Shown here piece by piece: positions 3,053-34,995 of a stretch of DNA of 35,141 bases. The stretch covers positions 1-35,141 of the forward strand of contig JAFGXB010000134.1 in NCBI GenBank assembly GCA_016936875.1. The letters run 5' to 3'. The DNA is from Burkholderiaceae bacterium. Lineage in GTDB: Bacteria > Pseudomonadota > Gammaproteobacteria > Burkholderiales > Burkholderiaceae_C. Positions within the stretch are counted from its first letter, which is position 1; each line of letters opens with the position of its first letter. The translations under genes and the position numbers were made by a program. The notes under the pieces were generated by a model. That model saw only the letters and a list, made by a program, of their open reading frames with translations. It did not search any database and was not told where the DNA came from.

Positions 3053-3057
3053 GTCGC

Positions 3058-3780
3058 TCACGCCCGCTGCGCCGTGCCCACCATGATCACCGGGCCTGTC
3101 GGCAAGCCGGTGGGCGAGCCACCTTGCGGTTCCACGCTCACGGCAAACGCCTTGGCCTGCGCCAGATGCGCCAGCGCTGCAGCGGGAATGGCGTACCGCG
3201 TCTGCCCTGCGACGACCACCCCGAGCGACACCGGCGCGCCCTGCGCGGGCAGCAGCCAGAGCTGATAACTCTTGCCGCTGGGTGCCGACATGGCGCCCAC
3301 CGCAGTCAGGGTGAGGGCGCCGTTGTGCACCGTCACCACGGCAGACTGCCCGCCTTTGCCGTGCATCAATGCAGCCATCTGCACCGAGGCGATGGCACTG
3401 CCAGGCGGATTCGGGCGTTGCACCAGAAGCACCACGGAGAACACCACAGCCGCCACCGCCACACCGCCAAGCAGCAGGGAAAGACGTCGCCATACCCGCG
3501 CGCCCCAGCCCGTCTCAGGCGGCACGGCGCGGCGCGGCGCATCAATCCGCGCGGCGATGCCTTGCCAAATGGCGTCAGCAGGCTGGCCGTATTCCGGTCT
3601 GCGGAGCAATGCGGCATCCAGCTGTTCGCGCCAGTGCTGCACCGCGCTGGCAAACGCCGGGCTCTGTTCCAGCAAACGCTGCGCACGGCGCTGCGCGGCC
3701 GGGCTGAGGCCACCAGTGAGCCAGTCAGCGGCCAGACGGTCGAGCAGATCGGCGTTACGGTAGCGCGCTGGCAGGCTCAT
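3058..3780 (-). CDS. Anti-sigma factor (RskA/anti-sigma-K family)
   Basis: MSLPARYRNADLLDRLAADWLTGGLSPAAQRRAQ..., one TM (LSLLLGGVAVAAVVFSVVLLV), C-terminal ...APSGKSYQLWLLPAQGAPVSLGVV...; ATGA overlap with the ECF sigma stop codon. Confidence 0.85.
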   Translation of the reverse strand: MSLPARYRNADLLDRLAADWLTGGLSPAAQRRAQRLLEQSPAFASAVQHWREQLDAALLRRPEYGQPADAIWQGIAARIDAPRRAVPPETGWGARVWRRLSLLLGGVAVAAVVFSVVLLVQRPNPPGSAIASVQMAALMHGKGGQSAVVTVHNGALTLTAVGAMSAPSGKSYQLWLLPAQGAPVSLGVVVAGQTRYAIPAAALAHLAQAKAFAVSVEPQGGSPTGLPTGPVIMVGTAQRA

Positions 3781-4340
3781 CGTGCGCCCTCGCCGAGGCA
3801 ATCGCGCAGCAGCAACACGGCGCGACGAATCAATGTCTTGACCGTACCCAGCGGCAGGGCACGCTCACGCGCCACCTCGGCATGGGTTTGCCCCAGCACA
3901 TAGGCCGCCGCGAGTACGTCACGCTGGCGGGGTGGCAACTGGCCCAGACAGTCCTCCATGTGTTGCCCCTGGAAGCCGGCTTCGAGCAGGGCTTCAGGCG
4001 TGCGGTGATCCGCAATTTCTGGCGGATTGTCATCCGCGTCAAGCTGCATGGGAACCAAAAACTGTGCCTCGCGTTTACTGGCACGCAGCCGGTCGAGGCA
4101 GGTATTGCGTACCAGGGCGGACAGCCACGCTTCGGGGCTGCCCAGATGCGGCCGGTAACTCGCCGCCTGGCCCCAGATTTTCACGTAGGCATCCTGCATG
4201 GCTTCTTCCGCCGCTGAGGTGTCGCGCAGCAGACGCAGGCAAATCGCCCAGGCCCGGCTCCGTGTGGCCGCATACAACTGGCTGAACGCATCGCGATCAG
4301 CCAGCGCGGTGTAGGCCAGCAAGGACTGCAAATCGGGCAT
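3777..4340 (-). CDS. ECF RNA polymerase sigma-70 factor
   Basis: 187 aa with sigma2 (AEEAMQDAYVKIW) and sigma4 (LPPRQRDVLAAAYVLGQTHAEVARERALPLGTVKTLIRRA) regions. Confidence 0.93.
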   Translation of the reverse strand: MPDLQSLLAYTALADRDAFSQLYAATRSRAWAICLRLLRDTSAAEEAMQDAYVKIWGQAASYRPHLGSPEAWLSALVRNTCLDRLRASKREAQFLVPMQLDADDNPPEIADHRTPEALLEAGFQGQHMEDCLGQLPPRQRDVLAAAYVLGQTHAEVARERALPLGTVKTLIRRAVLLLRDCLGEGAR

Positions 4341-4469
4341 GTGCTCTGGGGCGTGTGAGTGTTTGTCTCCTGTCGCGCAGCCGCACCGCAGCTTGCGAAT
4401 TTACAGGAGGACGCGCGGCGCATGTTACCGAGAATGCTGCGCATCCGCCGCGCGTGCAAGCCCTGTCGA

Positions 4470-5072
4470 TCAGGCGATAAACGCGGCTGGCACCGGGTCT
4501 TTGCCCAACGCGTTGCGCAAAATGGCCCAGTGCATGGTTTCGTCGCCCATGATGCTGGCCGCCGCCTTGGCCAGGTCTTTGTTATGAAACTGCGGCACCG
4601 CACCCAGATAGGCGCTGGCCGCGCCCTTTTCCAGACCGGCGGCGAACTCCAGCACATCGGCCTGCGATTTGAGCGACGCGGTGGGAAAGCCATAGTCCGC
4701 CGGTTTCTTCGCCATGACCGGCGTGCCGCCGAGTTTGCTGATGGTGGACGACAACACCTCGGCATGCGCCTTGTGCTGGCCCTGGAATTTCACGGCAACC
4801 GCCAGCACGGGCTTTTCCAGCAGCCCGGACTCCGCGCCCACCTGATAGGCGGCGATGGCCTGGTATTCCAGCCCCAGCGCGGTGTTGAGTATGGCGATGT
4901 CGTCGGAGGTCGATGCGGACATCGTCCCGGCCCAGCTCGTCACCGGCGCCAGGGCGCTGGACGCCGCGAGGCCTGCGGCGAACAGTCCGCCGACGCGGAA
5001 AAACTGCCGACGATCGGCGCCTTGCGCGTCTGCGCCCTGGGGGTTTGAAGCGGTGTCTTGTGTGCGTTGCAT
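4470..5072 (-). CDS. Tat-exported ferritin-like domain protein
   Basis: MQRTQDTASN...DRRQFFRVGGLFAAGLAASSALA (Tat-like RRQFF motif) followed by ferritin-like helices (ALGLEYQAIAAYQ, QGQHKAHAEVL, IMGDETMHWAIL). Start supported by an upstream RBS-like CAGGAG. Confidence 0.8.
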   Translation of the reverse strand: MQRTQDTASNPQGADAQGADRRQFFRVGGLFAAGLAASSALAPVTSWAGTMSASTSDDIAILNTALGLEYQAIAAYQVGAESGLLEKPVLAVAVKFQGQHKAHAEVLSSTISKLGGTPVMAKKPADYGFPTASLKSQADVLEFAAGLEKGAASAYLGAVPQFHNKDLAKAAASIMGDETMHWAILRNALGKDPVPAAFIA

Positions 5073-5275
5073 GATGCATTCTCCTGGGGGATCAAAGCGG
5101 ATCACAGCGCGCCCAACGCGGCTGTTGCAGGAATTACGCCGCGCCGCGGCAATTGGATTCAAGCCAGGATGCGAGTCACCGCATTCCTTTATCCCAGATC
5201 AAAAGATTGCAATTCCGGCATATCGGATTTCAGAGTTTTTGCGTCTTGTCACATTTGAAACAAGCTGTGTCCGTG

Positions 5276-7078
5276 ATGATGCGCGCCTCGACCAAATTGT
5301 TTCGCACACCGCCTGGAGTGTCCGTCATGCCGTTTTCCCGCCGTTTCGCGCCCACCGCCCGCGCCCGCATTGCCTACTGGCTTCGCCTGGTCTCGGTGTG
5401 CGCCGTCGCCATCAGCGCCCCGCCCGTTTTGGCCAATCCGTCGTCGGCGCCGATGTCGGCGCAAGCCGAGGTGGACATTCACTCGCCCTACCGCGTGGTG
5501 CCCAAAATGCCCACCGGGTCAAAAGCCACCGCGGATCACAGCAAGTTCAAGGAACTGCAGGGCCCGTTCAAAAGCGGCCCGGAAGTCACCGCGGCCTGCC
5601 TGAGCTGCCACACCGAGGCGGCCAAGCAGATCAAGGGCACCATTCACTGGAAGTGGGAAGAGGTGGAGCAGGACTCCAAGCGCATCGTCGGCAAGAACAA
5701 GGTGATGAACAACTTCTGCGTGTCCACACCGAGCAACCAGCAGTTCTGCACCGGCTGCCATGTGGGTTATGGCGATGCGAAGTCTGGGGAATTCGTCTCA
5801 TTCAGCAAGCGCCCGGACACCGATGTGGACTGTCTGGTCTGCCATGACCAGACCGGTAAATACACCAAGGCGCCCTATCAGTCAGGCAACCCGCCGACCA
5901 CCCGCATTGAAATGCCGCCAGGATCGGGCAAGTTCATCGAGCCGATTGATCTCGCCGTGATCGCCCAGCATGTGGGCGAACCCTCGCGCGCCAACTGCGG
6001 CACATGCCACTTCAACGGCGGCGGCGGCGACGGGGTGAAGCATGGCGACCTCGACAGCTCGCTGATCAATCCGCCCAAATCCGTCGACGTGCATATGGCC
6101 AAGGACGGCCTGAACTTCCAGTGCCAGACCTGTCACGCCACCGGCGGACATGAGGTGAGCGGCAGCCACTACAAGCTCGACGCCAAGCATGAAGGCGGCC
6201 AGTATGTGCGCGGCAGTCAACACAATATGGGCAGCGCCGCAAGCTGCCAGTCCTGCCACGGCGACACGCCGCACAAGGGCAGTCTGGCGCAGGATCTGAA
6301 CATGCACACCCGCAACATCGCCTGCCAGACCTGCCACATCCCCGAATTCGCGCGCGGCGGCGTGCCGACCAAGATGGAGTGGGACTATTCCAAGGCCGGT
6401 CAGCGCGGCCCGGACGGCAAGCCGCTGGTCCTCAAGGATGAACATGGCCATCCCACTTATCTGGGCATCAAGGGCCAGTTCAAGCTGGGCGAAGACGTGG
6501 TGCCCGACTACACCTGGTTCAACGGCGCGGTGAAGTGGATGAATATTGGCGAGAACGCCGTGCCGAACAAGGACGGAGTGATCGCCATCAACGAGTATGG
6601 CGGCAGCCCGACCGATGGCAAGTCACGCATCTGGCCGGTGAAAACCATGAAAGGCACACAGCCTTACGACCCGGAACTGCACCGCCTGCTCGCCATCCAC
6701 AACGCGGGCTTCGACGATGCGGCTTACTGGCACACCATGGACTGGCAAAAATCCATCGCCGCCGGCATGAAGGAGGCCGGTTTGCAATGGTCGGGCAAGT
6801 ATGAATTCGTCAAGACCACCACCACCTGGCCAATCACCCATATGGTCGCGCCAAAAGACAAGGCGCTGAGCTGCGCGCAGTGCCACACCAACAACGGTCG
6901 GCTGGAGAAGATCGACGGCATCTACATCCCGGGACGCAGCAAGGATCACCAGACCTGGATCGAAACCATCGGCCTGGGCATCGCCGGTCTGAGTCTGGCC
7001 GGGGTCATGGTGCATGGCGGCATCCGCAGTGTCATGTGGCTGCGCCGCCGCAACAAACCCGGCAGCAAGAGCCACTGA
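5276..7078 (+). CDS. Octaheme c-type cytochrome, tetrathionate reductase (OTR) family, C-terminally membrane anchored
   Basis: Eight CXXCH motifs (CLSCH, CTGCH, CLVCH, CGTCH, CQTCH, CQSCH, CQTCH, CAQCH), N-terminal signal region and C-terminal TM (IGLGIAGLSLAGVMVHGG). Start uncertain (ATG at about 5276 or 5329; ORF open from 5153). Confidence 0.88.
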   Translation: MMRASTKLFRTPPGVSVMPFSRRFAPTARARIAYWLRLVSVCAVAISAPPVLANPSSAPMSAQAEVDIHSPYRVVPKMPTGSKATADHSKFKELQGPFKSGPEVTAACLSCHTEAAKQIKGTIHWKWEEVEQDSKRIVGKNKVMNNFCVSTPSNQQFCTGCHVGYGDAKSGEFVSFSKRPDTDVDCLVCHDQTGKYTKAPYQSGNPPTTRIEMPPGSGKFIEPIDLAVIAQHVGEPSRANCGTCHFNGGGGDGVKHGDLDSSLINPPKSVDVHMAKDGLNFQCQTCHATGGHEVSGSHYKLDAKHEGGQYVRGSQHNMGSAASCQSCHGDTPHKGSLAQDLNMHTRNIACQTCHIPEFARGGVPTKMEWDYSKAGQRGPDGKPLVLKDEHGHPTYLGIKGQFKLGEDVVPDYTWFNGAVKWMNIGENAVPNKDGVIAINEYGGSPTDGKSRIWPVKTMKGTQPYDPELHRLLAIHNAGFDDAAYWHTMDWQKSIAAGMKEAGLQWSGKYEFVKTTTTWPITHMVAPKDKALSCAQCHTNNGRLEKIDGIYIPGRSKDHQTWIETIGLGIAGLSLAGVMVHGGIRSVMWLRRRNKPGSKSH

Positions 7079-7114
7079 TCCGCCCCGCATCGCAGGCACT
7101 TCGAGGAATTCGTC

Positions 7115-7780
7115 ATGTCACACAAAAAACACGTCATTCTGTTCAAGCGTTTCGAGCGCTTCTGGCACTGGAGCCAGGCCGGACTCATCATCCTGCTGAT
7201 GCTCTCTGGCTTTCGCATCCACGGCCTGTATGACCTCGGCGTGCAGTTCCAGACCGCGCTGCGCGTCCATACGGTGGCGGCCTGGACACTGGTGGTGCTG
7301 TGGGTCTTCGCCATCTTCTGGCACTTCACCACGGGGGAATGGAAGCAGTACATCCCGACCTTCGACAAGATTTTTCTGGTTGCCCGGCATTACGCCTGGG
7401 GCATGTTCCGCGGTGAAGAACACCCCTATCAGCAAAGCGTTGCGCGCAAACACAATCCGCTGCAACGTCTGGCCTATCTGTGGGTCAAGCTGATGATCAA
7501 CCCCATCATCTGGATCAGCGGCATCTGGCTGCTGTTCTTTGCCGACTGGGGCGCCTGGCCCGTCTGGCAGCAATGGGGCATCAGCCTGCAGACTGTGGCC
7601 TGGGCGCACACCATTGGCGCCTACATGATGCTGATCTTTTTCATCATCCACGTCTATCTCACCACCACCGGCCACACCCCGATGGCGCACATCAAGGCCA
7701 TGATCCGCGGCTATGAGGACGAACCTGTGCACCACCATCCGCGCACCAAGGCGGCGCAGAAATCGGCAGAAAACGCCTGA
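7115..7780 (+). CDS. Cytochrome b/b561-type membrane subunit
   Basis: KRFERFWHWSQAGLIILLMLSGFRIHG..., His-containing TM helices (LRVHTVAAWTLVVLWVFAIFWHF, WAHTIGAYMMLIFFIIHVYL), 36 bp downstream of the octaheme cytochrome. Confidence 0.88.
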   Translation: MSHKKHVILFKRFERFWHWSQAGLIILLMLSGFRIHGLYDLGVQFQTALRVHTVAAWTLVVLWVFAIFWHFTTGEWKQYIPTFDKIFLVARHYAWGMFRGEEHPYQQSVARKHNPLQRLAYLWVKLMINPIIWISGIWLLFFADWGAWPVWQQWGISLQTVAWAHTIGAYMMLIFFIIHVYLTTTGHTPMAHIKAMIRGYEDEPVHHHPRTKAAQKSAENA

Positions 7781-7801
7781 CTTCGGTTTCGGCGAAGCTC
7801 T

Positions 7802-7838
7802 GCGGCCGGACGCTGGCTATTCGCCCGCGCCCGGCCGC
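7802..7838. terminator. Possible hairpin between convergent genes
   Basis: gcggccggacg ... cgcccggccgc inverted repeat (11 bp, one mismatch) between convergent stop codons; no clear T-run. Confidence 0.3.
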
Positions 7839-7840
7839 CT

Positions 7841-10800
7841 TCACACCAGAACGCGCTCGATTCCGCCGTTGTTCGCCGCCTTGACGTACTCGGTCATCCA
7901 GTCTTCACCGATGAGGTGACGCGCCATTTCGATGACGATGTAGTCGGCCTCGAGCAAGCCGTGCTGCAGATCGTTGCCATAGCGTGTGAGCCCCTGCAGG
8001 CAGGACGGGCAGGAGGTGAGGATTTTGATGTCGCCGGAGAAACCGTCGGCGCGCAGCGCCAGTTCGTTCTTGCGCAGCTCCTCTTCCTTGCGGAAACGCA
8101 CTTGCGTGGCGATGTCCGGGCGCGAGATGCCGAAAGTGCCGCTCTCGCCACAGCAGCGCTCGCTCTTGCGCACGTCGTCGCCGAGCAGCGCCTTCACCGT
8201 CTTCATCGGCTCCTGCGTTTTCATCGGGCTGTGACAAGGGTCGTGATACAGATACTTGACCGCGCCAGAAGCTCCGCCCGGCGTGAGGCTGTAGCCCTTC
8301 TCCAGCAGGAATTCGTGGATGTCGATGATGCGGCAGCCCGGAAAGATTTTCTCGAATTCGTAGCCCTGCAACTGGTCGTAGCAGGTGCCGCAGCTCACCA
8401 CCACGGTCTTGATGTCGAGATAGTTGAGGGTGTTGGCCACGCGGTGGAACAGCACCCGGTTGTCGGTGATGATTTTCTCGGCCTTGTCGAACTGGCCCGA
8501 GCCCCGCTGCGGATAGCCGCAGCACAGATAGCCCGGTGGCAGCACCGTCTGCACCCCGGCGTGCCACAGCATGGCCTGCGTCGCCAGCCCCACCTGGCTG
8601 AATAGCCGCTCCGACCCGCAACCGGGGAAATAGAACACCGCCTCGCTGTCCACCGAGGTGCCACGCGGGTTGCGGATGATGGGCACGAAGTCCTTGTCTT
8701 CGATGTCGAGCAGCGCGCGCGCGGTTTTTTTGGGCAGCCCGCCGGGCATGGGCTTGTTGATGAAGTGAATGACCTGCTCACGCATCGGCGGTTTGCCGAC
8801 GGTGAGCGCCGGGTGCGCCGTCTGCGCCCTGGCCACCGGCTTGAGCAGACGCGTGGCCAGCCGCTGTGCCTTGAAGCCCACGCCCACCATGGCGCTGCGC
8901 ACCAGCTTGATGGTCTGCGGCTTGGAGGCGTTGAGAAAGAACATGGCCGCCGCGTTGCCGGGCTTGAAACTCTTTTTGCCCATCTTGCGCAGCAGGTTGC
9001 GCATATTCATGGTCACATCGCCGAAGTCGATGTCCACCGGGCAGGGGGTCACGCATTTGTGACACACGGTGCAATGGTCGGCCACGTCCTCGAACTCTTC
9101 CCAGTGGCGGATGCTCACGCCGCGCCGGGTCTGCTCCTCGTAGAGAAACGCCTCGATCAGCAGCGAGGTGGCCAGAATTTTGTCGCGCGGCGAATACAGC
9201 AGATTGGCGCGCGGCACATGGGTGGCGCAGACGCTTTTGCACTTGCCGCAGCGCAGGCAGTCTTTTACCGACGCGCTGATGGCGCCGATGTCGCTTTGCT
9301 GCATGATGAGCGATTCAAAACCCATCAGGTTGAAGCTGGGCGTGTAGGCGTTGCGCAGATCGGCGGGATGCGCCGGATCGTCGAGCAATTTTCCTTTGTT
9401 GAAACGCCCCTCGGGATCGACCTCGCGCTTGTAAGCGCGGAACGCGCCAATCTCGTCGTCGGTGAGGAACTCCAGCTTGGTGATGCCGATGCCGTGCTCG
9501 CCCGAGATCACTCCACCCAGACTGCGCGCCAGGGCCATGATGCGGGCCACGGCGTCGTGCGCCTGCTGCAGCATGGCGTAGTCGTCGGAATTGACCGGGA
9601 TGTTGGTATGCACATTGCCGTCGCCCGCATGCATATGCAGCGCCACCCAGGCGCGGCTCTTGAGCACGCGCTGGTGAATGGCATCAATCTCGCGGCGCAA
9701 GGGTTCGAACAAGCCGCCGGAGAACACCGCGGCCAAGGGTTTGCGCAACTCGGCCTTCCACGAGGCGCGCAGCGCGTGATCTTGCAGCAGATGGAACAAG
9801 GTGCGATCTTCGCTCCCCCCAGCCGGCAGCGCCAGCAGGGCAGGCGACAGGGCGCGCTGCGCATCGGTCAGCGCCACCAAAGGCATGTCGAGCTGATCGA
9901 GGTAGAACGACCAGCGCGCATGCACTGCGGCAAGCAGTTCCAGCGCCTGGGCGCGCTTGGCCTCCAGGTCTTCCCTGGACAGCGCAGGCTCGCCATCGGC
10001 CAGCTCTTCGTTGCGCGCCAAAGGCAGCGGGCCGCGCAACACGCGATCAATCTCGGCCACCAGCGCCAGCTTGTTCTTCAGCGACAGCTCGACATTGATG
10101 TGTTCGATCCCGTCGACGTACTCGCCCATGCGCGGCAGCGGAATGACCACGTCTTCATTGATCTTGAAGGCGTTGGTGTGACGGGCGATGGCCGCAGTGC
10201 GCTTGCGGTCGAGCCAGAATTTTTTGCGTGACTCGGCACTCACCGCGATGAAGCCTTCGCCCACGCGCGCATTGGCCATACGCACCACTTCGGAAGCGGC
10301 GCGGGCCACGGCGGCTTCATCCTCGCCAACGATATCGCCAAACAGCACCATTTTTGGCAGCGTGCCACGCGCGCTCTTGGTGGCATAGCCCACGGCTTTC
10401 AGGTAGCGGTCGTCCAGATGTTCCAGGCCCGCCAGAATGGCGCCGCCCGGCCGGTCATCGAGAAAGGTCTTGATCTCGACAATGCTGGGAATGGCCTCAC
10501 GCGCCTGGCCGAAAAACTCCAGGCAAACGGTGCGCACATGCGGCGGCATGCGGTGCAAAATCCAGCGGGCGCTGGTGATGATGCCGTCGCAGCCTTCTTT
10601 CTGCACGCCAGGCAGACCGGCGAGGAATTTGTCGGTCACGTCCTTGCCCAACCCTTCCTTGCGGAACTGCGCGCCGGGAATTTCCAGCAGACGGGTGTCG
10701 AGCGGCGTTTTGCCATCGGCGGCGAGGGTGCGAATTTCAAACCGCGCCACGGCCACATCGTGAATCTTGCCCAGGTTGTGATCGAGCCGCTCCACTTCCA

Positions 10801-11818
10801 CCCAGCGACCCTGCGGATCGACCATGCGCCAGGAGGCGAGATTGTCGATGGCCGTCCCCCACAGCACGGCCTTTTTGCCACCGGCGTTCATGGCCACGTT
10901 GCCGCCCACGCAGGAAGCATCGGCCGAGGTCGGATCGACCGCGAACACCAGACCGGCGGCCTCCGCCGCATCGGCCACGCGCTGCGTCACCACGCCGGCC
11001 GGGGTCTGGATGGTGGGCACGGGGTGGGACAAGCCGGGCAACTCCAGATACTCCACCGCGCCGATGCGGTCGAGCTTTTCGGTGTTGATCACCGCGCTCT
11101 TCCACACCAGCGGGATGGCGCCGCCGGTATAGCCGGTGCCGCCTCCGCGGGGGATGATGGTCAGACCGAGTTCGATACAGCCCTGCACCAGCCCGGCAAT
11201 CTCGTCTTCGCTGTCGGGGCAGAGCACGACAAAGGGATATTCCACCCGCCAGTCTGTGGCGTCCGTGACGTGACTCACTCGCGCCATGCCGTCGAAGCGG
11301 ATGGCGCCTTGCGCGCTGTGCCGCCCCAGCACCTTGCGGGTGCGCTGACGCAGCGCCGCAGCCTCGTCGAACCAGGCGGCGAAGGCGGCCACCGCAGCGC
11401 GGGCGCGTTCGAGCAATTGCCGCACCAGGGCGTCGCGCTGGGCTTGCGCGTGGTCGCTGTGCGCGCTGCTGTCGCGGCGGCGATCGATTTCGCGCAGGCG
11501 GTGCTCCAACGCACCAATCAGCGCGGCACGGCGTTTGCGGCTCTGCAGCAAATCGTCCTGAAGGAAAGGATTGCGCTGGACCACCCAGATGTCGCCCAGC
11601 ACCTCGTACAACATGCGTGCCGAACGTCCGGTACGTCGCTCCTGCCGCAACTGGTTGAGCCAGCCCCAGGCCTCGCTGCCGAGCAAGCGCATCACCACCT
11701 CGCGGTCGGAAAACGAGGTGTAGTTGTAAGGAATTTCGCGCAGGCGTGGGGCGGTATCGACCAAATCATGGCCCAGCGCAGGGAGCAAATCAGGAGCGTG
11801 TGAAGCGGGGGCGTTCAT
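7841..11818 (-). CDS. Large FAD-linked oxidase / Fe-S oxidoreductase fusion (DUF3683-containing, D-lactate/2-hydroxyacid dehydrogenase-like)
   Basis: [12 protein letters not shown]...; FAD_binding_4 region ([17 protein letters not shown]), FAD-oxidase C region ([28 protein letters not shown]), 4Fe-4S ([36 protein letters not shown]) and CCG-type cysteine domain ([19 protein letters not shown]). Confidence 0.9.
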
Positions 11819-11989
11819 CGGAACGGCGTCCGGCAGGGGGACGGGGCAGATAAAACGCCATTGTAGGGAGCCCGGTATTTCCGTATGACAAGCACGCCAG
11901 CCGCGCATTCGTGAGAAGAATCACGCAAATCCGAGCCGCATGCGGCAGTGCAACAAGTAAGGGTAATCCCGTGCTTTTAAGCTGCGCGC

Positions 11990-13345
11990 ATGAATGAACT
12001 CAAACTTGCCGAGTTGATGAGCGCGCTCAGTCATGCGCTCGACATGACCGAGGGACAGCCCGAAGGCCACTGCGTGCGCTGTGCCTGGATCGGCATGTCA
12101 GTGGGACGAGCAATCGGCCTGCCCGACCCGCAGCAATGGGAGCTGTACTACACCCTGCTGCTCAAGGACCTGGGCTGCAGCAGCAATGCCGCGCGCATTT
12201 GCGAGCTCTACCTCACCGACGATCTGCAGTTCAAGCGCGACTTCAAGTTGCTCGACGGCAGCCTGCCGCACGTGTTGCGCTTCGTTCTTGACCACACCGG
12301 CCTGCGCAGCGGTCTGGCCGAGCGCTTTCAGGCCACGCTCAATATCTTTCGCAACGGCAAGGACATCGCGCAGGAACTCATCCAGACCCGCTGCCTGCGC
12401 GGTGCCAACATCGCGCGGCAACTGCGCTTTCCCGAAAATGTGGCACGCGGCATCCACGGCCTCGACGAACATTGGGACGGCAGCGGCAAGCCCGAGGGGC
12501 TGGCGGGTGAGCACATTCCGCTCTACGCCCGGCTGGCCCTGCTGTCGCAGGTGGTCGACGTGTTTTTCACCGCCAGCGGCCCGGCCGAGGCGCGCGACGA
12601 AGTGCGTCGGCGTCGCGGCGGCTGGTTCGACCCCGAACTGGCCGACGCCTTCCTCAACCTCTCCGAGCAGGACGCCTTCTGGCAAACGCTGCGCGATCCC
12701 GATCTCGGCACCCAGGTGCTCGCCCTGGAGCCCGCGCAATGTTGCGTACCGCTGGATGAAGACTACCTCGACGAAATCGCCGCCGCCTTCGGTCAGATCG
12801 TCGATGCCAAGAGCCCCTACACCGCCGGGCACAGCGCCCGTGTGGCGCTTTACGCCGACCACATCGCCACCCAGCTCGACGTTGCGCCCGAGCGCCGCCG
12901 CTGGCTATACCGCGGCGCCCTGCTGCACGACGTGGGCAAACTCGGTGTGAGCAATGCCGTGCTCGACAAGGCCGGCAAACTCGACGCGGCGGAGTGGGAG
13001 GCGGTGCAATTGCACGCCACCTACACCGAGCGCATTCTGGGGCGGATCAGCGCGTTTTCCGAGCTGGCCCGCGTGTCCGGCGCGCACCACGAGCGCCTCG
13101 ACGGCACAGGCTATCCGCGCCAGCTCACTGCCGAGCACATCGCCCTGGAAACCCGCATCATCACCACGGCAGACATCTTCGACGCCATTTCGGCCGACCG
13201 CCCCTACCGCGGCGCCGTGCCTATCCCCGAGACGCTGCAGATCATGGCCAAGACCGTCGGCATCGCGCTCGATCCGCGCTGCTTCGATGCGCTCTGCCGT
13301 AGCGTGGAACAGCTCGATGCGCCACCGCCGCCTCTCGCCGCCTGA
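11990..13345 (+). CDS. HD-GYP domain phosphodiesterase
   Basis: C-terminal LLHDVGKLGVSN and AHHERLDGTGYPRQL motifs; N-terminal half resembles a degenerate HD domain. Confidence 0.9.
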   Translation: MNELKLAELMSALSHALDMTEGQPEGHCVRCAWIGMSVGRAIGLPDPQQWELYYTLLLKDLGCSSNAARICELYLTDDLQFKRDFKLLDGSLPHVLRFVLDHTGLRSGLAERFQATLNIFRNGKDIAQELIQTRCLRGANIARQLRFPENVARGIHGLDEHWDGSGKPEGLAGEHIPLYARLALLSQVVDVFFTASGPAEARDEVRRRRGGWFDPELADAFLNLSEQDAFWQTLRDPDLGTQVLALEPAQCCVPLDEDYLDEIAAAFGQIVDAKSPYTAGHSARVALYADHIATQLDVAPERRRWLYRGALLHDVGKLGVSNAVLDKAGKLDAAEWEAVQLHATYTERILGRISAFSELARVSGAHHERLDGTGYPRQLTAEHIALETRIITTADIFDAISADRPYRGAVPIPETLQIMAKTVGIALDPRCFDALCRSVEQLDAPPPPLAA

Positions 13346-26687: not shown

Positions 26688-26720
26688 GAACACCCCAGGC
26701 CGCTTCAGCCTGGGGTGTTC
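26688..26720. terminator. Inverted repeat between convergent genes, probable bidirectional terminator
   Basis: gaacaccccaggc cgcttca gcctggggtgttc: 13-bp perfect stem; weak T-run. Confidence 0.6.
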
Positions 26721-28215
26721 ACGCTCTTGCAAACTGCACCTGCACCCTGAGCCCGCGGCCCGGCGTGTGTAGTGGCAAGTCGCTCAGTGTGATCTCGGCG
26801 TCGTGCTGGCGGGCAATTTCGCGCACGATGGCCAGGCCCAGGCCGCTGCCTTCGCTGCCGTTGTCGAGAATGCGATAGAACGGCTCGAACACCAGTGCGC
26901 GCTCGGCCTCGGGAATGCCGGGGCCGCTATCGTCCACCTGCAATTGCACCACGACTCTGGCACCCGGGCCGTCGGCCACGGCACTGCGCAAACGCAGGGT
27001 CACGCTGCCGCCGGGCGGGGTGTAGGTGATGGCGTTGTGCAGCAGGTTCTTGATCAGCTCGTGCAGCAGCAGGGCGTTGCCGCGCATGGGAAGTTTTGTG
27101 GGCGGGCTGTCGAACTCCAGGTCCAGGCCTTTGTCGAGAGCGAGCATGGCCAGCTCCTGCATGGCCTCGGCGGCGGGCTGGCGCAGATCAATCGTTTCAA
27201 ATACCGCGCGGGCCGCACCGCCCTGATTTTCGGCGCGGGTCAAGGCAAGGAGCTGGTTGACTAGGCGGGTGGTGCGCTCCACGCTGCGACCGATCTGCCG
27301 CAGGCTGGCGCGCAGTTCCTCGGGATCGGTTTCGCGCTGCGCCAGTTCGGCCTGCATACGCAGACCGGCCAGCGGCGTCTTGATCTGGTGGGCCGCGTCG
27401 GCGATGAAGCGTTTCTGCGTCTGCAAAGACTGCTGCAGGCGGGCGAACAGACTGTTGATCGAATCGACCAGCGGCGCAATTTCTTCCGGCGCCTCCCGCT
27501 CGTCGATCGGGCTGATGTCGTCGGCGCGGCGGCGGCGGATGCGCGCCTGCAGTTCGTTGAGCGGCGCGATGCCCTGCCCCAGTCCGAACCAGACCAGCAG
27601 GATGAAGATGGGCACGACGACAAACTGCGGCAGGATGACGCCCTGCACAATGTCGCGCGCCAGCCGTGTGCGCGCATCCATGCTCTGCGCCACCTGCACC
27701 AGCACCGGCACCGCCCGAGGCGCCCCGGCCGCAACGGGAGGCCACGCCCAGGCGGCGGCCAGCCGCACGCTGTGGTCGCCCATCTCGCCATCGCGCCACG
27801 ACACCGCCAACGGCCCCGAGGCGGCGTGGCTGGGCGGCAGCATCGCCGGTGACGGCAAACCCGCCGCCCCGGCCAGCAGCGCGCCGGACACGCTGCGCAC
27901 CTGATAGCCCAGAATGCCACCGGCCGGCGGCTGCCGCAGGGTCTGCTGCCACAAGGCCGACTGCACAGCGTCCTGCGCGCCCTGCGTCTGCACCTGCGCG
28001 GCGAGCTGCCTCAAGGTGTGTTCCAGCGCGGCGTCGTAAGGCCGTGCGGCAATGGCCTGCGCCACGAGGTAGGTGATGCCGATGGACAGCGGCCACAGCA
28101 GCAACATCGGCGCGAGCATCCAGTCGAGAATTTCGCCGAACAGCGAGCGCGGATGGCGTCTGCCGCCCCGCGCAGGTTCGCCTGCAACGCCCGGTTGCGG
28201 CGGCAGATCAGACAT
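26719..28215 (-). CDS. Two-component sensor histidine kinase
   Basis: MSDLPPQPG...; HAMP region; KRFIADAAHQIKTPLAGLRMQAEL H-box; N-box LIKNLLHNAITYTPPGG; G-box DSGPGIPEAE, GSGLGLAIVREIA. Confidence 0.92.
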   Translation of the reverse strand: MSDLPPQPGVAGEPARGGRRHPRSLFGEILDWMLAPMLLLWPLSIGITYLVAQAIAARPYDAALEHTLRQLAAQVQTQGAQDAVQSALWQQTLRQPPAGGILGYQVRSVSGALLAGAAGLPSPAMLPPSHAASGPLAVSWRDGEMGDHSVRLAAAWAWPPVAAGAPRAVPVLVQVAQSMDARTRLARDIVQGVILPQFVVVPIFILLVWFGLGQGIAPLNELQARIRRRRADDISPIDEREAPEEIAPLVDSINSLFARLQQSLQTQKRFIADAAHQIKTPLAGLRMQAELAQRETDPEELRASLRQIGRSVERTTRLVNQLLALTRAENQGGAARAVFETIDLRQPAAEAMQELAMLALDKGLDLEFDSPPTKLPMRGNALLLHELIKNLLHNAITYTPPGGSVTLRLRSAVADGPGARVVVQLQVDDSGPGIPEAERALVFEPFYRILDNGSEGSGLGLAIVREIARQHDAEITLSDLPLHTPGRGLRVQVQFARA

Positions 28216-28918
28216 CGGGCTTGACGGCCTCGCTGGTCGGCGTGGGGGCAGGAACAATTTTTTCCAGGCAGTAACCCAGGCCGCGCACCGTGGCGATGCG
28301 CACCGGTCCCACCTCGATCTTCTTGCGCAGCCGGTGCACATAGACCTCGATGGCGTTGGTGCTCACCTCTTCCCCCCAGACGCACAGATGCTCGACGAGC
28401 TGGTCTTTGCTCACCAAGCGGCCCGCGCGCTGTAACAGCACTTCGAGCAGGGTGAGTTCGCGCGCCGAGAGTTCCACCACATGGCCGTCGAGCGTGACCA
28501 CGCGGCCGGTGATGTCGTAGTGCAAAGGGCCGTGCTGGATGATGGCGCTGGCCCCGCCCATGCCCCGGCGCGACAGCGCCCGAACCCGCGCCTCAAGCTC
28601 CTGCAGGGCGAAAGGTTTGGCCATGTAGTCGTCGGCGCCCAAATCGAGGCCGCGCACCTTGTCTTCCACACTGTCGGCGGCGGTGAGGATGAGCACCGGC
28701 ACGGTGGTGCCGCGCGCGCGCAGTTTGCGCAGCACGTCAAAGCCCGACAGCCGCGGCAGCCCCAGATCGAGAATCAGCAGATCGAAGGAGTTGGATTGCA
28801 GCGCCGCATCGGCGCTGTTGCCATCGGCCACCTGATCGACGGCGTAGCCCAGCGCGCGCAGGGAACGCAGCAGCCCATCGGCCAGAACCCGGTCATCTTC
28901 GGCAATCAGAATCCGCAT
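28208..28918 (-). CDS. OmpR-family response regulator
   Basis: MRILIAEDDRVLADGLLRSLRALG...LLILDLGLPRLSG...LTAADSVEDKVRGLDLGADDYMAKPF; winged helix LTLLEVLLQRAGRLVSKDQL; 8-bp overlap with the kinase. Confidence 0.94.
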   Translation of the reverse strand: MRILIAEDDRVLADGLLRSLRALGYAVDQVADGNSADAALQSNSFDLLILDLGLPRLSGFDVLRKLRARGTTVPVLILTAADSVEDKVRGLDLGADDYMAKPFALQELEARVRALSRRGMGGASAIIQHGPLHYDITGRVVTLDGHVVELSARELTLLEVLLQRAGRLVSKDQLVEHLCVWGEEVSTNAIEVYVHRLRKKIEVGPVRIATVRGLGYCLEKIVPAPTPTSEAVKPDV

Positions 28919-28976: not shown

Positions 28977-30074
28977 TTAGGCCGCAGCCGCCTCGCGCCG
29001 CTGCAGCGAAACCGGCAGCGCCCCGGCGAGCTGCATCTGCAGGGTGCGCGTGGGGAAGGCAAACGCGACGCCGTGCCGGGCCAGCACGCGCATCAGGCCG
29101 AGATTGATGGCTTGCTGGGTGTTCATATACGCGGTGTAGTCGGACGTGTTCATCCAGTACACCACCTCGAAGTTCAGGCTGGAATCGCCGAAATCCTTGA
29201 AATGCGCGCGGTCGAAGCGGGCGTCGGGCTGCTGATCGACGATGGCTTTGACCATGGCCGGGATCTGCTCCATGGTGTCTGCCGGGGTGTCATACGTCAC
29301 GCCGAAGGCGAACAGGATGCGCCGCTCCTGCATGAATTTGTAGTTGCGCAGCCGCGCCTTGGTCAGATCGGTGTTGGAGAACACCACGATCTCCCCGCTG
29401 ATGGAGCGGATGCGCGTGGTCTTCAGGCCGATGTTTTCCACCGTTCCGGAGAAGTTGTCCACCACGACGAAGTGCCCGATCTGAAAGGGTTTGTCGAGCA
29501 CGATGGACAGGCTGGAGAACAGATCGCCCAGAATGTTCTGCAGCGCCAGGCCCACGGCAATGCCGCCCACGCCCAGACCGGCCAGCAGGGTGGTGACGTT
29601 GAAGCCGAGGTTATCGAGCAGCAACAGGAACACCAGCGACCACAGCACCAGCCGGGCGATGAAGCTCATCGCGGCCAGGCCGGTGGCGGTTTCGGGGTCG
29701 TGCGCGACGGCACGCTCGCGTGACACGCGAATCCAGAAGTCAAGAAAGCGCGAGACCCACAGGCCAATCTGCAAAAACAGGCCGACCGCCGCCAGCCCGA
29801 TCAGCCACTTCGCAGTGGTGGCGGGTAACACCAGACTCTGCGTCGCCGGGTACAGACCGATAAGAGCGGCCAACGGCAACCGCGTACCTTGCAAGGCACT
29901 CACCAAGGCGTCATCCCAACGATTGCTGGTGCGCGCGGCAAACGCCGCCAGCCACGCGATCAGAATCGGCTTGAGAATGGACACCGCAACCACCACAAAA
30001 ACGAGCCAGCCCAGTGCGATGAGCCCGTTTTGCAGGGAGTTGCCAAGGAACGTCAGGGAGAGCCATGCGGTCAT
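28977..30074 (-). CDS. MscS-family mechanosensitive ion channel (1)
   Basis: TTLLAGLGVGGIAVGLALQNILGDLFSSLSIVLDKPFQIGHFVVV...GTVENIGLKTTRIRSISGEIVVFSNTDL. Confidence 0.92.
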   Translation of the reverse strand: MTAWLSLTFLGNSLQNGLIALGWLVFVVVAVSILKPILIAWLAAFAARTSNRWDDALVSALQGTRLPLAALIGLYPATQSLVLPATTAKWLIGLAAVGLFLQIGLWVSRFLDFWIRVSRERAVAHDPETATGLAAMSFIARLVLWSLVFLLLLDNLGFNVTTLLAGLGVGGIAVGLALQNILGDLFSSLSIVLDKPFQIGHFVVVDNFSGTVENIGLKTTRIRSISGEIVVFSNTDLTKARLRNYKFMQERRILFAFGVTYDTPADTMEQIPAMVKAIVDQQPDARFDRAHFKDFGDSSLNFEVVYWMNTSDYTAYMNTQQAINLGLMRVLARHGVAFAFPTRTLQMQLAGALPVSLQRREAAAA

Positions 30075-30105
30075 TGCGCAGCCTTTCACAAGAGAAATAA
30101 GGGGA

Positions 30106-31248
30106 TCAGGGGGTAAACGGCGGCATGTTCCGGGATGCCTCGCCAGTCGCGGTCGCCGCGTCATGCCACTGCATGCGACGACGGGGCAGATGCTGCGGCT
30201 GGGCGCGCTGCATGTAGGCAATCATGCCTTCGCGGATGCGGCAGCGCAGCTCCCAGGCGCGCGCCGAGTTGGCCGCGCTGACCAGAAAGCGCACCTGCAC
30301 CGCAGTTTCGGTGGCGTCGGTCACATGCACCAGAGCCAGACGGCCGTCCCAGTCGGGGTCGGCTGCGCACAGTCGCTTGAGTTCATCGCGCAGACACTCC
30401 ACCGGGGTGGCGTAGTCCACCCACAGAAACACCGTGCCCAGCAGACTGGCGCTGGTGCGCGTCCAGTTCTGGAACGGGTGTTCGATGAACCATTGCAGCG
30501 GCAGAATCAGGCGCCGGTCGTCCCATACACGGAAGACCACATAAGTGCCCGTGATCTCCTCCACCCGCCCCCACTCGCCCTCAACGATGAGCACATCGTT
30601 GATGCGGATCGGCTCGGTCATCGCGATCTGCAAACCCGCCAGCAGATTGCTCAGCACCGGGCGTGCGGCGAAACCCACCACCAGCCCGGCGATGCCCGCC
30701 GACGCCAGCAGGCTGGCGCCGATCTGCCGCACATCGGGAATGCTCATCAGCGCCACGGCCAGCCCGACGAGCAGAATCAGGAAGCTCAAGACGCGGGTGA
30801 GCACCCGGGCCCGAGTGAGCAGGCCACGCACGGCGAGATTGGCGTCGAGCAGGTTGGGATCGTCGGGCAGTTGCAGACCGCCGCGTCGCAGCACCACGAG
30901 ATCGCCGCCCGCGCGGACCAGACGCATGGCCAGCCAGGTCAAGGCGGCGATCAGCAACAGGTGCAGCGGGTGGATCGTCCAGGACGCGCTGCCCAACGCC
31001 GGCTTGAGCAGCGCCGCATCGATGCGCAGCACCAGCAACAGCCACGCCAGCCGCAGCGGGTTGCGCAGGCGAAGGTACAGAAACTGCCCGTTGCCCTCGG
31101 GCCCGCTCGCCCTCAGCAGCAGGCGCGCCGCCAGCATGAACAGGGGCGCCGCCAGCAGCGTGAGCATGAGCGCCTGCGCCTGGGCCGGATGGGTCGGCAC
31201 CCAGTGCCACAGCATCGTCCAGTTCACGTTCAGATCGCCTGCCATCAT
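30106..31248 (-). CDS. MscS-family mechanosensitive ion channel (2)
   Basis: MMAGDLNVNWTMLWHW...; GASLLASAGIAGLVVGFAARPVLSNLLAGLQIAMTEPIRINDVLIVEGEWGRVEEITGTYVVFRVWDDRRLILPLQWF. Confidence 0.9.
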   Translation of the reverse strand: MMAGDLNVNWTMLWHWVPTHPAQAQALMLTLLAAPLFMLAARLLLRASGPEGNGQFLYLRLRNPLRLAWLLLVLRIDAALLKPALGSASWTIHPLHLLLIAALTWLAMRLVRAGGDLVVLRRGGLQLPDDPNLLDANLAVRGLLTRARVLTRVLSFLILLVGLAVALMSIPDVRQIGASLLASAGIAGLVVGFAARPVLSNLLAGLQIAMTEPIRINDVLIVEGEWGRVEEITGTYVVFRVWDDRRLILPLQWFIEHPFQNWTRTSASLLGTVFLWVDYATPVECLRDELKRLCAADPDWDGRLALVHVTDATETAVQVRFLVSAANSARAWELRCRIREGMIAYMQRAQPQHLPRRRMQWHDAATATGEASRNMPPFTP

Positions 31249-31265
31249 CGGCTCCGCCCGGCCGC

Positions 31266-32747
31266 TCACTGCGCCCGCAACTGCGCGAACAGTTCGAGCA
31301 CGTGGCGGGTCCAGTGGGTGATGTCGTAACGGCTGATGAGCGCATCCATGCGCTGCATGCGCTCGCACTGTTCCTGGCGCGGCATGTCCAGCGCCCGGTC
31401 GATGGCGTCGTCCATCTGGCTGAGGCTGTAGGGGTTGACGAGCACGGCATCCTGCAGCTCCACGGCCGCGCCGGCGAACTCCGAGAGCACCAGCACGCCG
31501 CTCTCGTTCACATGCGCGGCGATGAATTCCTTGGCCACGAGGTTCAGGCCGTCGCGCAGCGGGGTGATCCAGCAGATGTCGGCGGCACGGTAATAGCTCA
31601 GCGTCTCCTCGAAAGGCATGGGCGTGGTCGAAAGCAGGATGGGCGTCCAGGTGAGCGATCCGTGATGGCCGTTGATGCGCCCGACGAGCTGCTCGATGTT
31701 CTGCTGCGCCCGCTTGTAGACCCGCATGCCGTCGGCCGCGGCCACCGCCGTCACCAGCAGCCGGACTCGGCCGTGCAACTCGGGACGGCGCACCAGCAGG
31801 CGCTCGAAGGCCAGCAGCATTTCGCGCGTGCCCTTGGCATAGTCCACCCGGCCGATCGACACGATGATGGTCTGCTCGGCCATTTCGCGGCGGATATGGG
31901 CCACCCGCGCCAGGTTGTCGGGCTTCTGCACCGTGCTGCGGATGAGGTCGGCGTGGGTGCCGATGGGAAAGGCGTCGATGCGCACCCGGCGCCCGCCCAC
32001 GGTGACCGACACCGGCGTGACCGGCTCGGACAGCGCGGTGCCGGTGGCCTGCAGTTCCGGATAAACCTTGCGCTCGACCAACCCGTCGACCTTGCACAGC
32101 GACTGCACCAGCGCGGCAAAGTTGCGGGCGTAGCGCGGCACGTGAAAGCCCACCAGATCGCAATCGAGCAACGAGGCCAGGATTTCGTCGCGCCAAGGCA
32201 GGATGTTGAACACGTCGGGCGCGGGAAACGGCGTGTGGTGGAAAAAGGCGATCTTCACATCCGGGCGCATCTGCCGCACGAAACCCGGCACCAGCCACAG
32301 GTTGTAGTCGTGCACCCAGATCACCGCCCCCGGCGCGGCCTCGGCACAAGCCGCCTCGGCAAACAGGCGGTTGACCTCACGGAACACGGCCCACTGGCAG
32401 TTCTCCGTGGAGTAGAGGGAGGGAAAGCTGTTGAGCACGGGCCACAGCGCTTCTTTCGAGACGACGTGATAGAACTGGCTGATCTGCTCGGGCGTGAGGG
32501 GTAGCCGCACCACCTCGTAGCTGCCATAACTGTCGTTCACCGTGATGCGGCGCTCGAACTTCACCGGCTTGCCCGCGGGCGATTTTTTCCACGCCACCCA
32601 GCTCGCCCGGTCCACCTGGCCAATGAAACCCTTGAGCGCTGGCACGATGCCGTTGGGACTCTTGTTTTCCTTCAGGACGATCTGGCCGTCCTCGCTGTGT
32701 TCCTCATACGGTTGTCTGTGATAGACGATGACCAGAGATGAAGCCAT
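31266..32747 (-). CDS. ggpS: Glucosylglycerol-phosphate synthase (GgpS-like; GT20 family, related to OtsA)
   Basis: [41 protein letters not shown]...ASWVAWKK...[18 protein letters not shown]...[13 protein letters not shown]...[17 protein letters not shown]...[15 protein letters not shown]. The N-terminal YHRxPY...SPNGI...STWVAWK-like pattern recalls cyanobacterial GgpS; immediate neighbours (HAD phosphatase, gpsA) agree. Confidence 0.78.
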
Positions 32748-33489
32748 TGAAATCCCCCTGTTGATGAAATCGCGTCAGCGCGTCGAGCACTCCGGCGGCA
32801 CCCGGTTGCGCGCTGCGGTAAACGTTGTCGTGCGGTGTGATGGCATGCTCCAGCCCCGCTTCGCGGTTGCTCACGGCCACGCCGGTCAGCCCGGTCTGGA
32901 ACATCGACAGATCGTTGAGCGTGTCACCAGCCACCAGGGTGCGGTGTTCGGGCAGGCCCAGCGCCGCCAGAGTGCGCAGCAGAGTCGCGCCCTTCTGCAC
33001 CCCGCGCGGCAACACGTCGAAATACTGGTTATCCGACATCAGGGTGTCGAAACCCAGACGTCGCAGCTCGCTCGCCGCCACTTGCGCTGCCTCGGCACAG
33101 TCGTAGAAATAGGAACGCCTGCGCCCGCTGTAAAGCGGCTGAGGCTGCAACGTCGGATGCTGGCGGACGATGGCTTCGATCTGATACGGCGCGTCGCTGG
33201 GCCAGGCGGCGTCGAGCCAGTGGTCGAGCGCCGGAATGGAGGCGAAGTCGACGCCGGTCGCCACGCTGGTGCCGACATCGCCGATCACATGGTCGGGCTG
33301 CACCGGCAACTCACTCGCAAGTTGCCGCATGAAATCGAGCCCGCGTCCGCTCACAAAAATCAGCACAATCTCGCCGCGGCGCTGCGCGATCCAGTCATAC
33401 AGCGCCGCCCGCTGCGCCGCGCTCCCTCCCAGAAACGTGCCGTCGAGATCGGTGGCCAGAATGGTCTGTGGCATCGCTCCGCCTTTCAT
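32704..33489 (-). CDS. HAD-IIB family phosphatase, candidate glucosylglycerol-phosphate phosphatase
   Basis: ILATDLDGTFLGG HAD motif I, VSGRGLDFM, GDTLNDLSMFQTGLTGVAVSN motif IV; ATGA overlap with gpsA stop and 44-bp overlap with the ggpS start. Confidence 0.82.
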   Translation of the reverse strand: MKGGAMPQTILATDLDGTFLGGSAAQRAALYDWIAQRRGEIVLIFVSGRGLDFMRQLASELPVQPDHVIGDVGTSVATGVDFASIPALDHWLDAAWPSDAPYQIEAIVRQHPTLQPQPLYSGRRRSYFYDCAEAAQVAASELRRLGFDTLMSDNQYFDVLPRGVQKGATLLRTLAALGLPEHRTLVAGDTLNDLSMFQTGLTGVAVSNREAGLEHAITPHDNVYRSAQPGAAGVLDALTRFHQQGDFNGFISGHRLSQTTV

Positions 33490-34658
33490 TGCGCCTGCCG
33501 CGTCGTCGCGCGGGACAAAGAAGAACGCATGCCCTGCGCATCGCGCAGCGGCCGGTGCGCATGCACGCCAGAAGTCACGGGCAGGCCCAGGCCGTCGTCC
33601 TGACGCAGCGGCGCGTTCAACAAGTGTTCCAAGGCCACCGCCGCCGTCTGCCGCTGCCCCAGCACCTCGCGCACCGCAGCAGCCACATGAAGACACAAAC
33701 CCAGCCTGCGCTCCAGGCTTTGCACCGACTGGCAGCTCACCGCGCCCTCGGCCAGCTCGTCGCCCTGCCCCGCCAGCTCGCCCCGCCCCAACCGCATGCC
33801 CAGCCGGGTGTTGCGTGACTGCGCCGATGACGCGGTGAGAAACAGATCACCCGCACCCGCGCTGGACAGCAGGGTTTCGGGCCGCCCGCCCAGCGCCAGT
33901 GTGAGGGCGCGCATGTCCTGCAGGCCGCGGGTGAGAATGGCGGCACGTGCGTTCTCGCCCAGATCGCCGCTCATGGCCATACCGCAGGCGATGGCAATCA
34001 TGTTCTTCAACGCTCCGCCCACCTGCACGCCGATGGCGTCGTCCGTCACGTCGAGCTGCACCCCGCCGGCGGCAAAAGCCGCGCGCAGCCCGTCCGTCAT
34101 GCGCTGCGCAAGGCGCTGCACGTCCACCGCGTTGCGCAAGCGCAGTGCGGGCAGGCCGACGGTCAACGCGGCAGGCTGCCCGCGCACCACTTCCTGCGCG
34201 AAGCTCGGCCCACCGATGGCGCCGATCAGCGCGTCGGATCGCAGCTCCTGCTGCAGCACCTGCGACATCAGCGCGCCGCTGTCGCGCTCGATGCCCTTGC
34301 AGGCAGCCAGCACCACGGCGCGCCGCTGCAGCAAGGGCGCGGCGGCCCGCGCCACCTCGCGCAGCGCGGCCGACGGCACCGCCATGAAAACGGCATCGGC
34401 ACCGTCGAGCACCTCGGCCATCTGGCTGCTCGCCTGCAGCCCCGGGGCCAGTGCCAGATCCGGCAGATGCCGCGGATTGCGCGCCTGGGTGGCGATGGCG
34501 TGGGTGAGATCGGGGCGCCGCGCCCACAGGCGCACCTCAAGCCCGCCGCGCCGCAAGGCGCAGGCCAGGGCTGTACCCCACGCGCCGGCACCGAGAATTG
34601 CAACGGTAGAAGGCCGAATCGGCGTTCCGGCGATGAATGAAGAAGCAGAGTTCTGCAT
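33486..34658 (-). CDS. gpsA: NAD(P)H-dependent glycerol-3-phosphate dehydrogenase
   Basis: MQNSASSFIAGTPIRPSTVAILGAGAWGTALACALRRGG, GGPSFAQEVVRGQPAALTVG, GGALKNMIAIACGMAMSGDLGENARAAILTRGLQDM, SSAGAGDLFLTASSAQSRNTRLG. Confidence 0.93.
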   Translation of the reverse strand: MQNSASSFIAGTPIRPSTVAILGAGAWGTALACALRRGGLEVRLWARRPDLTHAIATQARNPRHLPDLALAPGLQASSQMAEVLDGADAVFMAVPSAALREVARAAAPLLQRRAVVLAACKGIERDSGALMSQVLQQELRSDALIGAIGGPSFAQEVVRGQPAALTVGLPALRLRNAVDVQRLAQRMTDGLRAAFAAGGVQLDVTDDAIGVQVGGALKNMIAIACGMAMSGDLGENARAAILTRGLQDMRALTLALGGRPETLLSSAGAGDLFLTASSAQSRNTRLGMRLGRGELAGQGDELAEGAVSCQSVQSLERRLGLCLHVAAAVREVLGQRQTAAVALEHLLNAPLRQDDGLGLPVTSGVHAHRPLRDAQGMRSSLSRATTRQAQ

Positions 34659-34838
34659 GGACTCTCCCAAGGTCGTGAACAAGCTCGCGCTTGTCCGATG
34701 GCAGGACGCCCAGCAAGGGTGGACGTGGCGACTGGGGGCCGCGCGTGCAGACGCGACCAAAGGACATTCAGCATGAATGCCGTGAAACTCGGGGCCATTT
34801 GAAGCCCGCACGCCGCCCATGTGCCGGGCAGCAAATCC

Positions 34839-34896: not shown

Positions 34897-34995
34897 GGTG
34901 ACTCGTTGATCCAAAAAGTTAATGGATAGATTGTAAAGCAAATTGACGATAATTTGAATTTCATTATCACTAAATTACTTGCAACTTTTGGGACG
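34887..34995. promoter_or_regulatory. AT-rich intergenic island upstream of the gpsA-ggp block
   Basis: catgttttttggtgactcg...aaaaagttaatggatagattgtaaagcaaattgacgataatttgaatttcattatcactaaattacttgcaac, markedly AT-rich against a GC-rich background. Confidence 0.4.

Follow-up and report, generated by a model that had tools for sequence, protein, structure and literature searches.

The window, the whole stretch of 35,141 nt analysed here, corresponded to one complete contig (C314) of a 2.84-Mb assembly comprising 317 contigs and estimated to be 91% complete. Five tightly spaced genes were located on its minus strand (Table 1), encoding a glycerol-3-phosphate dehydrogenase (GpsA2), a HAD-type phosphatase, a GT20 synthase (GgpS) and two MscS-domain channels (MscS1 and MscS2). 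The gpsA2 and HAD genes shared an ATGA overlap, the HAD gene overlapped ggpS by 44 bp, and gaps of 17 bp and 31 bp separated ggpS from MscS1 and MscS1 from MscS2, respectively; the coordinates, overlaps and gaps given in an earlier sequence-only reading of this DNA were all exact. The five genes most likely constitute one operon read as a single transcript. To call the locus self-contained, as in that reading, was too strong, since a clear glgC for ADP-glucose, the glucosyl donor, lies on another contig and the block carries no degradation or re-uptake gene. An OmpR-type response regulator and a histidine kinase (2CSK_N) were encoded 58 bp after MscS2 (nt 26719-28918, minus strand), and in most Thiomonas loci this pair has stayed close to the block.

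Table 1. Features of the putative glucosylglycerol locus and its upstream region (positions in the window)
Feature	Position (nt)	Strand	Description
Promoter-like site TTCAAA-17 nt-TACAAT	34930..34958	minus	inside block TTGCTTTACAATCTA; consensus match
Inverted repeat AAGTAG-cgagtt-CTACTT	34882-34865	minus	conserved in most aligned Thiomonas
Inverted repeat CTGGCC-tgcgca-GGCCAG	34857-34840	minus	conserved in most aligned Thiomonas
Hairpin GGTCGCG-tctgca-CGCGCGGCC	34737..34758	minus	just 5' of leader RNA core
Leader RNA core	34662..34738	minus	P1 (CCCAGUCG with CGAC..UGGG), hairpin P2, hairpin P3
Shine-Dalgarno GGGAG of gpsA2	34664..34668	minus	partly paired in P1
gpsA2	33486..34658	minus	NAD(P)H glycerol-3-phosphate dehydrogenase, 390 aa; operon-dedicated second copy
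HAD-IIB phosphatase	32704..33489	minus	261 aa, sucrose-phosphatase type; putative glucosylglycerol-phosphate phosphatase
ggpS	31266..32747	minus	GT20 glucosylglycerol-phosphate synthase, 493 aa, predicted from TIGR02398 match, tree and residues
MscS1	30106..31248	minus	divergent MscS-domain channel, 380 aa; PF00924
MscS2	28977..30074	minus	MscS/YnaI-type channel, 365 aa; PF00924, PF21082, PF21088

The GT20 protein scored 650.8 bits on the GgpS equivalog profile TIGR02398 (cut-off 569) and 420.3 bits, below the cut-off of 564.85, on the OtsA profile. The GgpS model gave 252-293 bits for eight other GT20 proteins of the same order, which scored higher with OtsA-type models, and two further GgpS proteins (loci L012 and L101) lay above the GgpS cut-off. 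A GT20 tree was built from 52 proteins, with no cyanobacterial or biochemically proven GgpS among them and with some long outgroup branches; in it, the 35 GgpS rows, including that of the window, fell on one side of a branch with a support of 97/97. Glucose-6-phosphate is bound in E. coli OtsA by Arg9, Trp40, Tyr76, Trp85 and Arg300, residues conserved in proteins of proven activity (PMC1769515). The position of Arg300 is Ala338 in the window protein, Ala, Asn or Asp in 35/35 GgpS proteins and Arg in 16 of the 17 other GT20 proteins; several donor-site residues are unchanged. The window ggpS was the only GT20 gene counted in the assembly, where OtsB was not found by a search that does detect E. 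coli OtsB, and its product was about 95% identical to GgpS of Thiomonas bhubaneswarensis; the host is very probably a Thiomonas. Profile search and GT20 tree, on which the earlier naming of the protein had been staked beforehand, both favour GgpS, and on these comparisons the assignment as glucosylglycerol-phosphate synthase holds. That the protein is instead a trehalose-6-phosphate synthase, with the HAD protein as its phosphatase and trehalose as the operon product, is highly improbable: despite a family shared with OtsA, 27-35% identity to OtsA in the matches and PDB relatives that are trehalose-phosphate synthases, the profiles, the tree, the replaced Arg300 and the missing OtsB weigh strongly against it, and both the sucrose-phosphatase type of the HAD protein and the leading glycerol-3-phosphate dehydrogenase gene argue against it. 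An otsA-like gene was also seen in NZ_CP141089.1, an E. coli record of 4.94 Mb that bears the label "plasmid unnamed1" and looks like a mislabelled chromosome.

The HAD protein matched PF05116 (S6PP, 140 bits) and general HAD models only, with no glucosylglycerol-phosphatase (GgpP) model among the matches listed. In the window the HAD and GT20 domains are encoded by separate, overlapping ORFs, and a fused HAD-ggpS ORF was found in none of the related loci. As the HAD gene was paired with ggpS in every well-flanked locus (see below), we infer that its product is the glucosylglycerol-phosphate phosphatase. The gpsA2 product scored 306.2 bits on NF000942 (cut-off 257) and also matched PF01210 and PF07479. 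Another gpsA, with 38% identity to the operon copy, was located on contig C273, and in the tree a separate group (100/100) was formed by the gpsA genes from the operons of Thiomonas and Thiobacillus-type loci; in some alphaproteobacteria the single gpsA found was the operon copy. The proposal that GpsA supplies the precursor is thus strengthened, the operon gene appearing as a second copy of separate lineage. In Variovorax dokdonensis (L093), ggpS and the operon gpsA grouped with alphaproteobacterial sequences and the other gpsA with those of betaproteobacteria, which suggests transfer of the module.

A total of 481 ggpS-like stretches were obtained from genome contigs; the best 80 of these loci were kept, and 60 of them had enough flank. 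Their neighbours were identified with profiles instead of greedy gene calls, because in high-GC DNA the latter yielded an excess of antisense ORFs. The HAD gene preceded ggpS in 60/60 loci and gpsA did so in 42/60, while genes for MscS, an SSS symporter and a GH13 phosphorylase were found beside ggpS in 20, 11 and 7 loci, respectively. Almost every close Thiomonas or Thiobacillus-type locus retained the 44-bp HAD/ggpS overlap, and the gpsA-phosphatase-ggpS arrangement was conserved across alpha- and betaproteobacteria; judged from sequence comparison, it is an old module. A class-wide scan of 368 other genomes revealed GgpS in three and fused GgpPS in none. Two Hydrogenophaga loci (L106 and L108) had another GgpS-like GT20 gene (nt ~2600-5130; 734-736 bits on a locus-built profile), located upstream of the first by a few kb.

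Among the matches of the GH13 phosphorylase, solved glucosylglycerol phosphorylases came closest (819 and 809 bits); a protein with almost the same score (811 bits) has been deposited as a sucrose phosphorylase, and the next sucrose phosphorylase scored 446 bits. In two loci the phosphorylase gene was followed by those for a symporter and glycerol kinase. Since these sister loci add a glucosylglycerol-splitting enzyme to a locus predicted to make glycerol-3-phosphate and build a glucoside, the phosphorylase of the sister lineage provides strong comparative evidence for glucosylglycerol as the likely product. No such phosphorylase was found in the Thiomonas genomes searched, a search that had no positive-control genome. 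MscS and phosphorylase genes never occurred together in the 60 loci, an exclusion that may reflect ancestry alone, as one change on the tree suffices to explain the phosphorylase. The SSS sodium:solute symporter gene, a candidate for glucosylglycerol re-uptake, was located downstream of ggpS in L031/L042, L036/L044 and L045, and ahead of MscS1 in L044 and L045. By all computational tests the sequence-only reading was right on the metabolite, and from these we infer glucosylglycerol in vivo.

A feature overlooked in that reading lies upstream of gpsA2, namely a three-helix leader RNA of 79 nt that ends just before the start codon. In the consensus, helix P1 (CCaAGUCG with CGACUucGG) encloses P2 and P3, and its final GG is part of the Shine-Dalgarno GGAG, which stands 9 nt from the ATG in 20/20 leaders. 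In distant loci the leader sequence changes and the fold persists. An upstream alignment of seven Thiomonas genomes contained long conserved blocks nearer gpsA2, and the block with the promoter-like site was invariant in all seven; about 0.6 sites matching the consensus as this one does are expected by chance.

A covariance model (R1), trained on 11 loci with the group of the window left out, recovered the window and the six other searched members of that group, each at the syntenic position and in the correct orientation, with E values from 8e-7 to 0.011 in 1.2 Mb (window, 25.2 bits, E 0.011). R1 also matched L058 (nt 7130-7270) and L082 (nt 5320-5450), in which the leader RNA precedes a short GTG-started ORF and then a HAD gene, gpsA being not detected. 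The leader RNA was present in 23 loci. In the alignment of these 23 sequences, which is fitted to the model, 50 cells showed two-sided compensatory change versus 15.1 in shuffles, and covariation was 0.309 versus 0.154 when shuffled (0/500) and at most 0.103 when slid; in the unfitted alignment of 11 sequences it was 0.145 versus 0.101 when shuffled (4/500). RNAalifold recovered 19 of the model pairs on alignment A7. Covariation falls on P2 and P3 more than on P1, which is nearly invariant and overlaps the Shine-Dalgarno sequence; because P1 hardly varies, its support comes from conservation and position more than from covariation. The window leader by itself folded no better than shuffles (z -0.56), so that the case for the leader rests on comparison. 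No Rfam family reached the gathering score for the leader in the window, L059, L064, L069 or L060.

In 2.4 of 3.3 Mb scanned of a close relative, one strong leader copy (64 bits) and no convincing second copy were found. A weaker relative of the leader was present at the corresponding position in Thiobacillus-type loci (L049, E 0.0018; L046, E 0.055), and nothing convincing was found in the other taxa searched. A match of 24.6 bits in L240 (nt 7922-7997), antisense to an ORF similar to enoyl-CoA hydratase, was taken as chance.

It is improbable that conservation of the leader stems from its translation as an N-terminal extension of GpsA2, or from a DNA operator, instead of from RNA structure. 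The gpsA2 frame is indeed open upstream in the window, to nt 34820, and inverted repeats lie near the promoter, but the extension is refuted by in-frame stops upstream in 7/20 leaders and by the divergence of the would-be peptides. Further against this explanation, changes in P2 and P3 keep pairing and not sequence, the distance from GGAG to the ATG is constant in all 20 leaders, and the two loci in which gpsA was not detected retain the RNA in front of the HAD gene. The RNA fold is thus the preferred explanation, and it is apparently previously unreported.

Both channel proteins matched the MscS beta-domain PF00924 (MscS1, 43.3 bits; MscS2, 61.5 bits; cut-off 20.2). PF21082 and PF21088 were over cut-off in MscS2 and had no match in MscS1, which weakly matched MscM and YnaI, whereas MscS2 matched YnaI and MscS; the AlphaFold model of MscS1 (pLDDT 57) was left out of the evidence. 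Four MscS-domain genes were found in the 91% complete assembly, two of them in the block; together with the HAD and gpsA genes that recur ahead of ggpS and the retained 44-bp overlap, this speaks against a chance arrangement. In Thiomonas-type loci and Extensimonas the MscS2 orthologues lie downstream of ggpS, in Simplicispira-type loci upstream of the HAD gene; the linkage has therefore outlived rearrangement. Among 13 Thiomonas genomes, nine possessed ggpS, and of these, seven had MscS1, seven MscS2 and eight gpsA2, whereas orthologues of all three were found in 0/4 genomes without ggpS (Fisher p 0.021 for MscS1 and 0.007 for gpsA2, with some genomes incomplete and kinship ignored). A 38-residue remnant of MscS2 (66% identity) was observed in a Thiomonas genome with a symporter gene after ggpS (G007:C3:36220-36333), suggesting loss of MscS2 in that genome. 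In T. bhubaneswarensis an ORF similar to K+ channels, with a selectivity-filter-like TVGYGD motif and found in no other locus, directly follows MscS2 on the same strand (L033, nt 6815-8071; L040, nt 11768-13024).

The operon could make glucosylglycerol with the MscS genes being mere neighbours that have no role in its release. MscS channels are unspecific, 40 of the 60 glucosylglycerol loci have no MscS gene, and in the window short gaps alone tie the two genes to ggpS. This explanation is nevertheless unlikely, given MscS2 orthologues beside ggpS in two different arrangements, the absence of both channel orthologues from the four Thiomonas genomes without ggpS, and the same pairing in ectoine clusters (PMC13342039). 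Linkage and co-absence thus lend support to the earlier proposal that the channels serve the block as a valve. Since most glucosylglycerol loci have no channel and MscS is unspecific, the channels may be tied to the locus through physiology and not through glucosylglycerol in particular.

Taken together, the locus is probably an osmolyte operon for glucosylglycerol with two release channels and a conserved leader fold at the ribosome-binding site. GpsA2 would convert dihydroxyacetone phosphate to glycerol-3-phosphate, GgpS would join this to glucose from ADP-glucose, and the HAD enzyme would strip the phosphate to give glucosylglycerol, which the two MscS channels would let out, along with other solutes, on sudden dilution. 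Transcription probably begins some 260 nt upstream, and the mRNA leader would end in the conserved fold, a candidate translational switch. A closed P1 would mask the Shine-Dalgarno sequence, so that gpsA2 would be poorly translated, and via the gene overlaps translation of the next two genes would be lowered as well. Under salt, a signal, for which ions, glucosylglycerol, a precursor or other metabolite, or a protein are candidates, would open P1 and allow GpsA2, the phosphatase and GgpS to make glucosylglycerol. More tentatively, and with the odds somewhat against it, the leader might represent a new switch class, a riboswitch or an ion- or osmo-sensing RNA freeing the ribosome-binding site under salt, by which one RNA sensor would govern synthesis, precursor supply and release valves.

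In cyanobacteria, ggpS is co-localised with gghA, glpK, glpD or gpsA, and Synechocystis possesses GgpS and GgpP (PMC6753628). The window shares with that pathway a GgpS of the same curated family, synthase and phosphatase as separate enzymes of a two-step route, and the possible proximity of glycerol-3-phosphate genes; it differs in its phosphatase, a HAD protein of the sucrose-phosphatase type, in the overlaps between gpsA, phosphatase and ggpS, in the two MscS genes that follow, and in that GghA was not seen in the block. Fused GgpPS proteins are known in Azotobacter, Stenotrophomonas, Pseudomonas and Marinobacter, the last with an adjoining glucosylglycerol phosphorylase gene as in the Thiobacillus-type loci (PMC10873239); the phosphatase-then-synthase order is the same, but in the window the two are separate, overlapping ORFs. 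Ectoine clusters contain the precursor enzyme ask_ect (PMC5924519) and, according to PMC13342039, citing Czech 2022, MscS-type channels. There too, one cluster combines the making of an osmolyte with its own precursor enzyme and an MscS channel, although the solute is another, the enzymes are unrelated, and the window adds a second MscS gene and a structured leader. The arrangement of substrate supply plus valve, earlier thought unusual, is therefore not new as an idea. Its use for glucosylglycerol appears new in the literature searched, in which no glucosylglycerol operon with MscS genes and no paper linking Thiomonas to glucosylglycerol were found. The leader resembles known translational riboswitches and leader RNAs in having several helices, in belonging to a metabolic operon and in a closing helix that takes in the ribosome-binding site; unlike them, it is a candidate known from sequence comparison with no Rfam match, and in the 2.4 Mb scanned its single strong copy belonged to one type of operon.

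These findings extend the ectoine pattern, in which solute, precursor enzyme and safety valve are kept together, to an unrelated osmolyte, and suggest glucosylglycerol as a solute of Thiomonas and its relatives. The part most surprising to a specialist is the leader RNA: a covarying leader at the ribosome-binding site offers a testable route by which osmotic sensing may enter the control of osmolyte synthesis.
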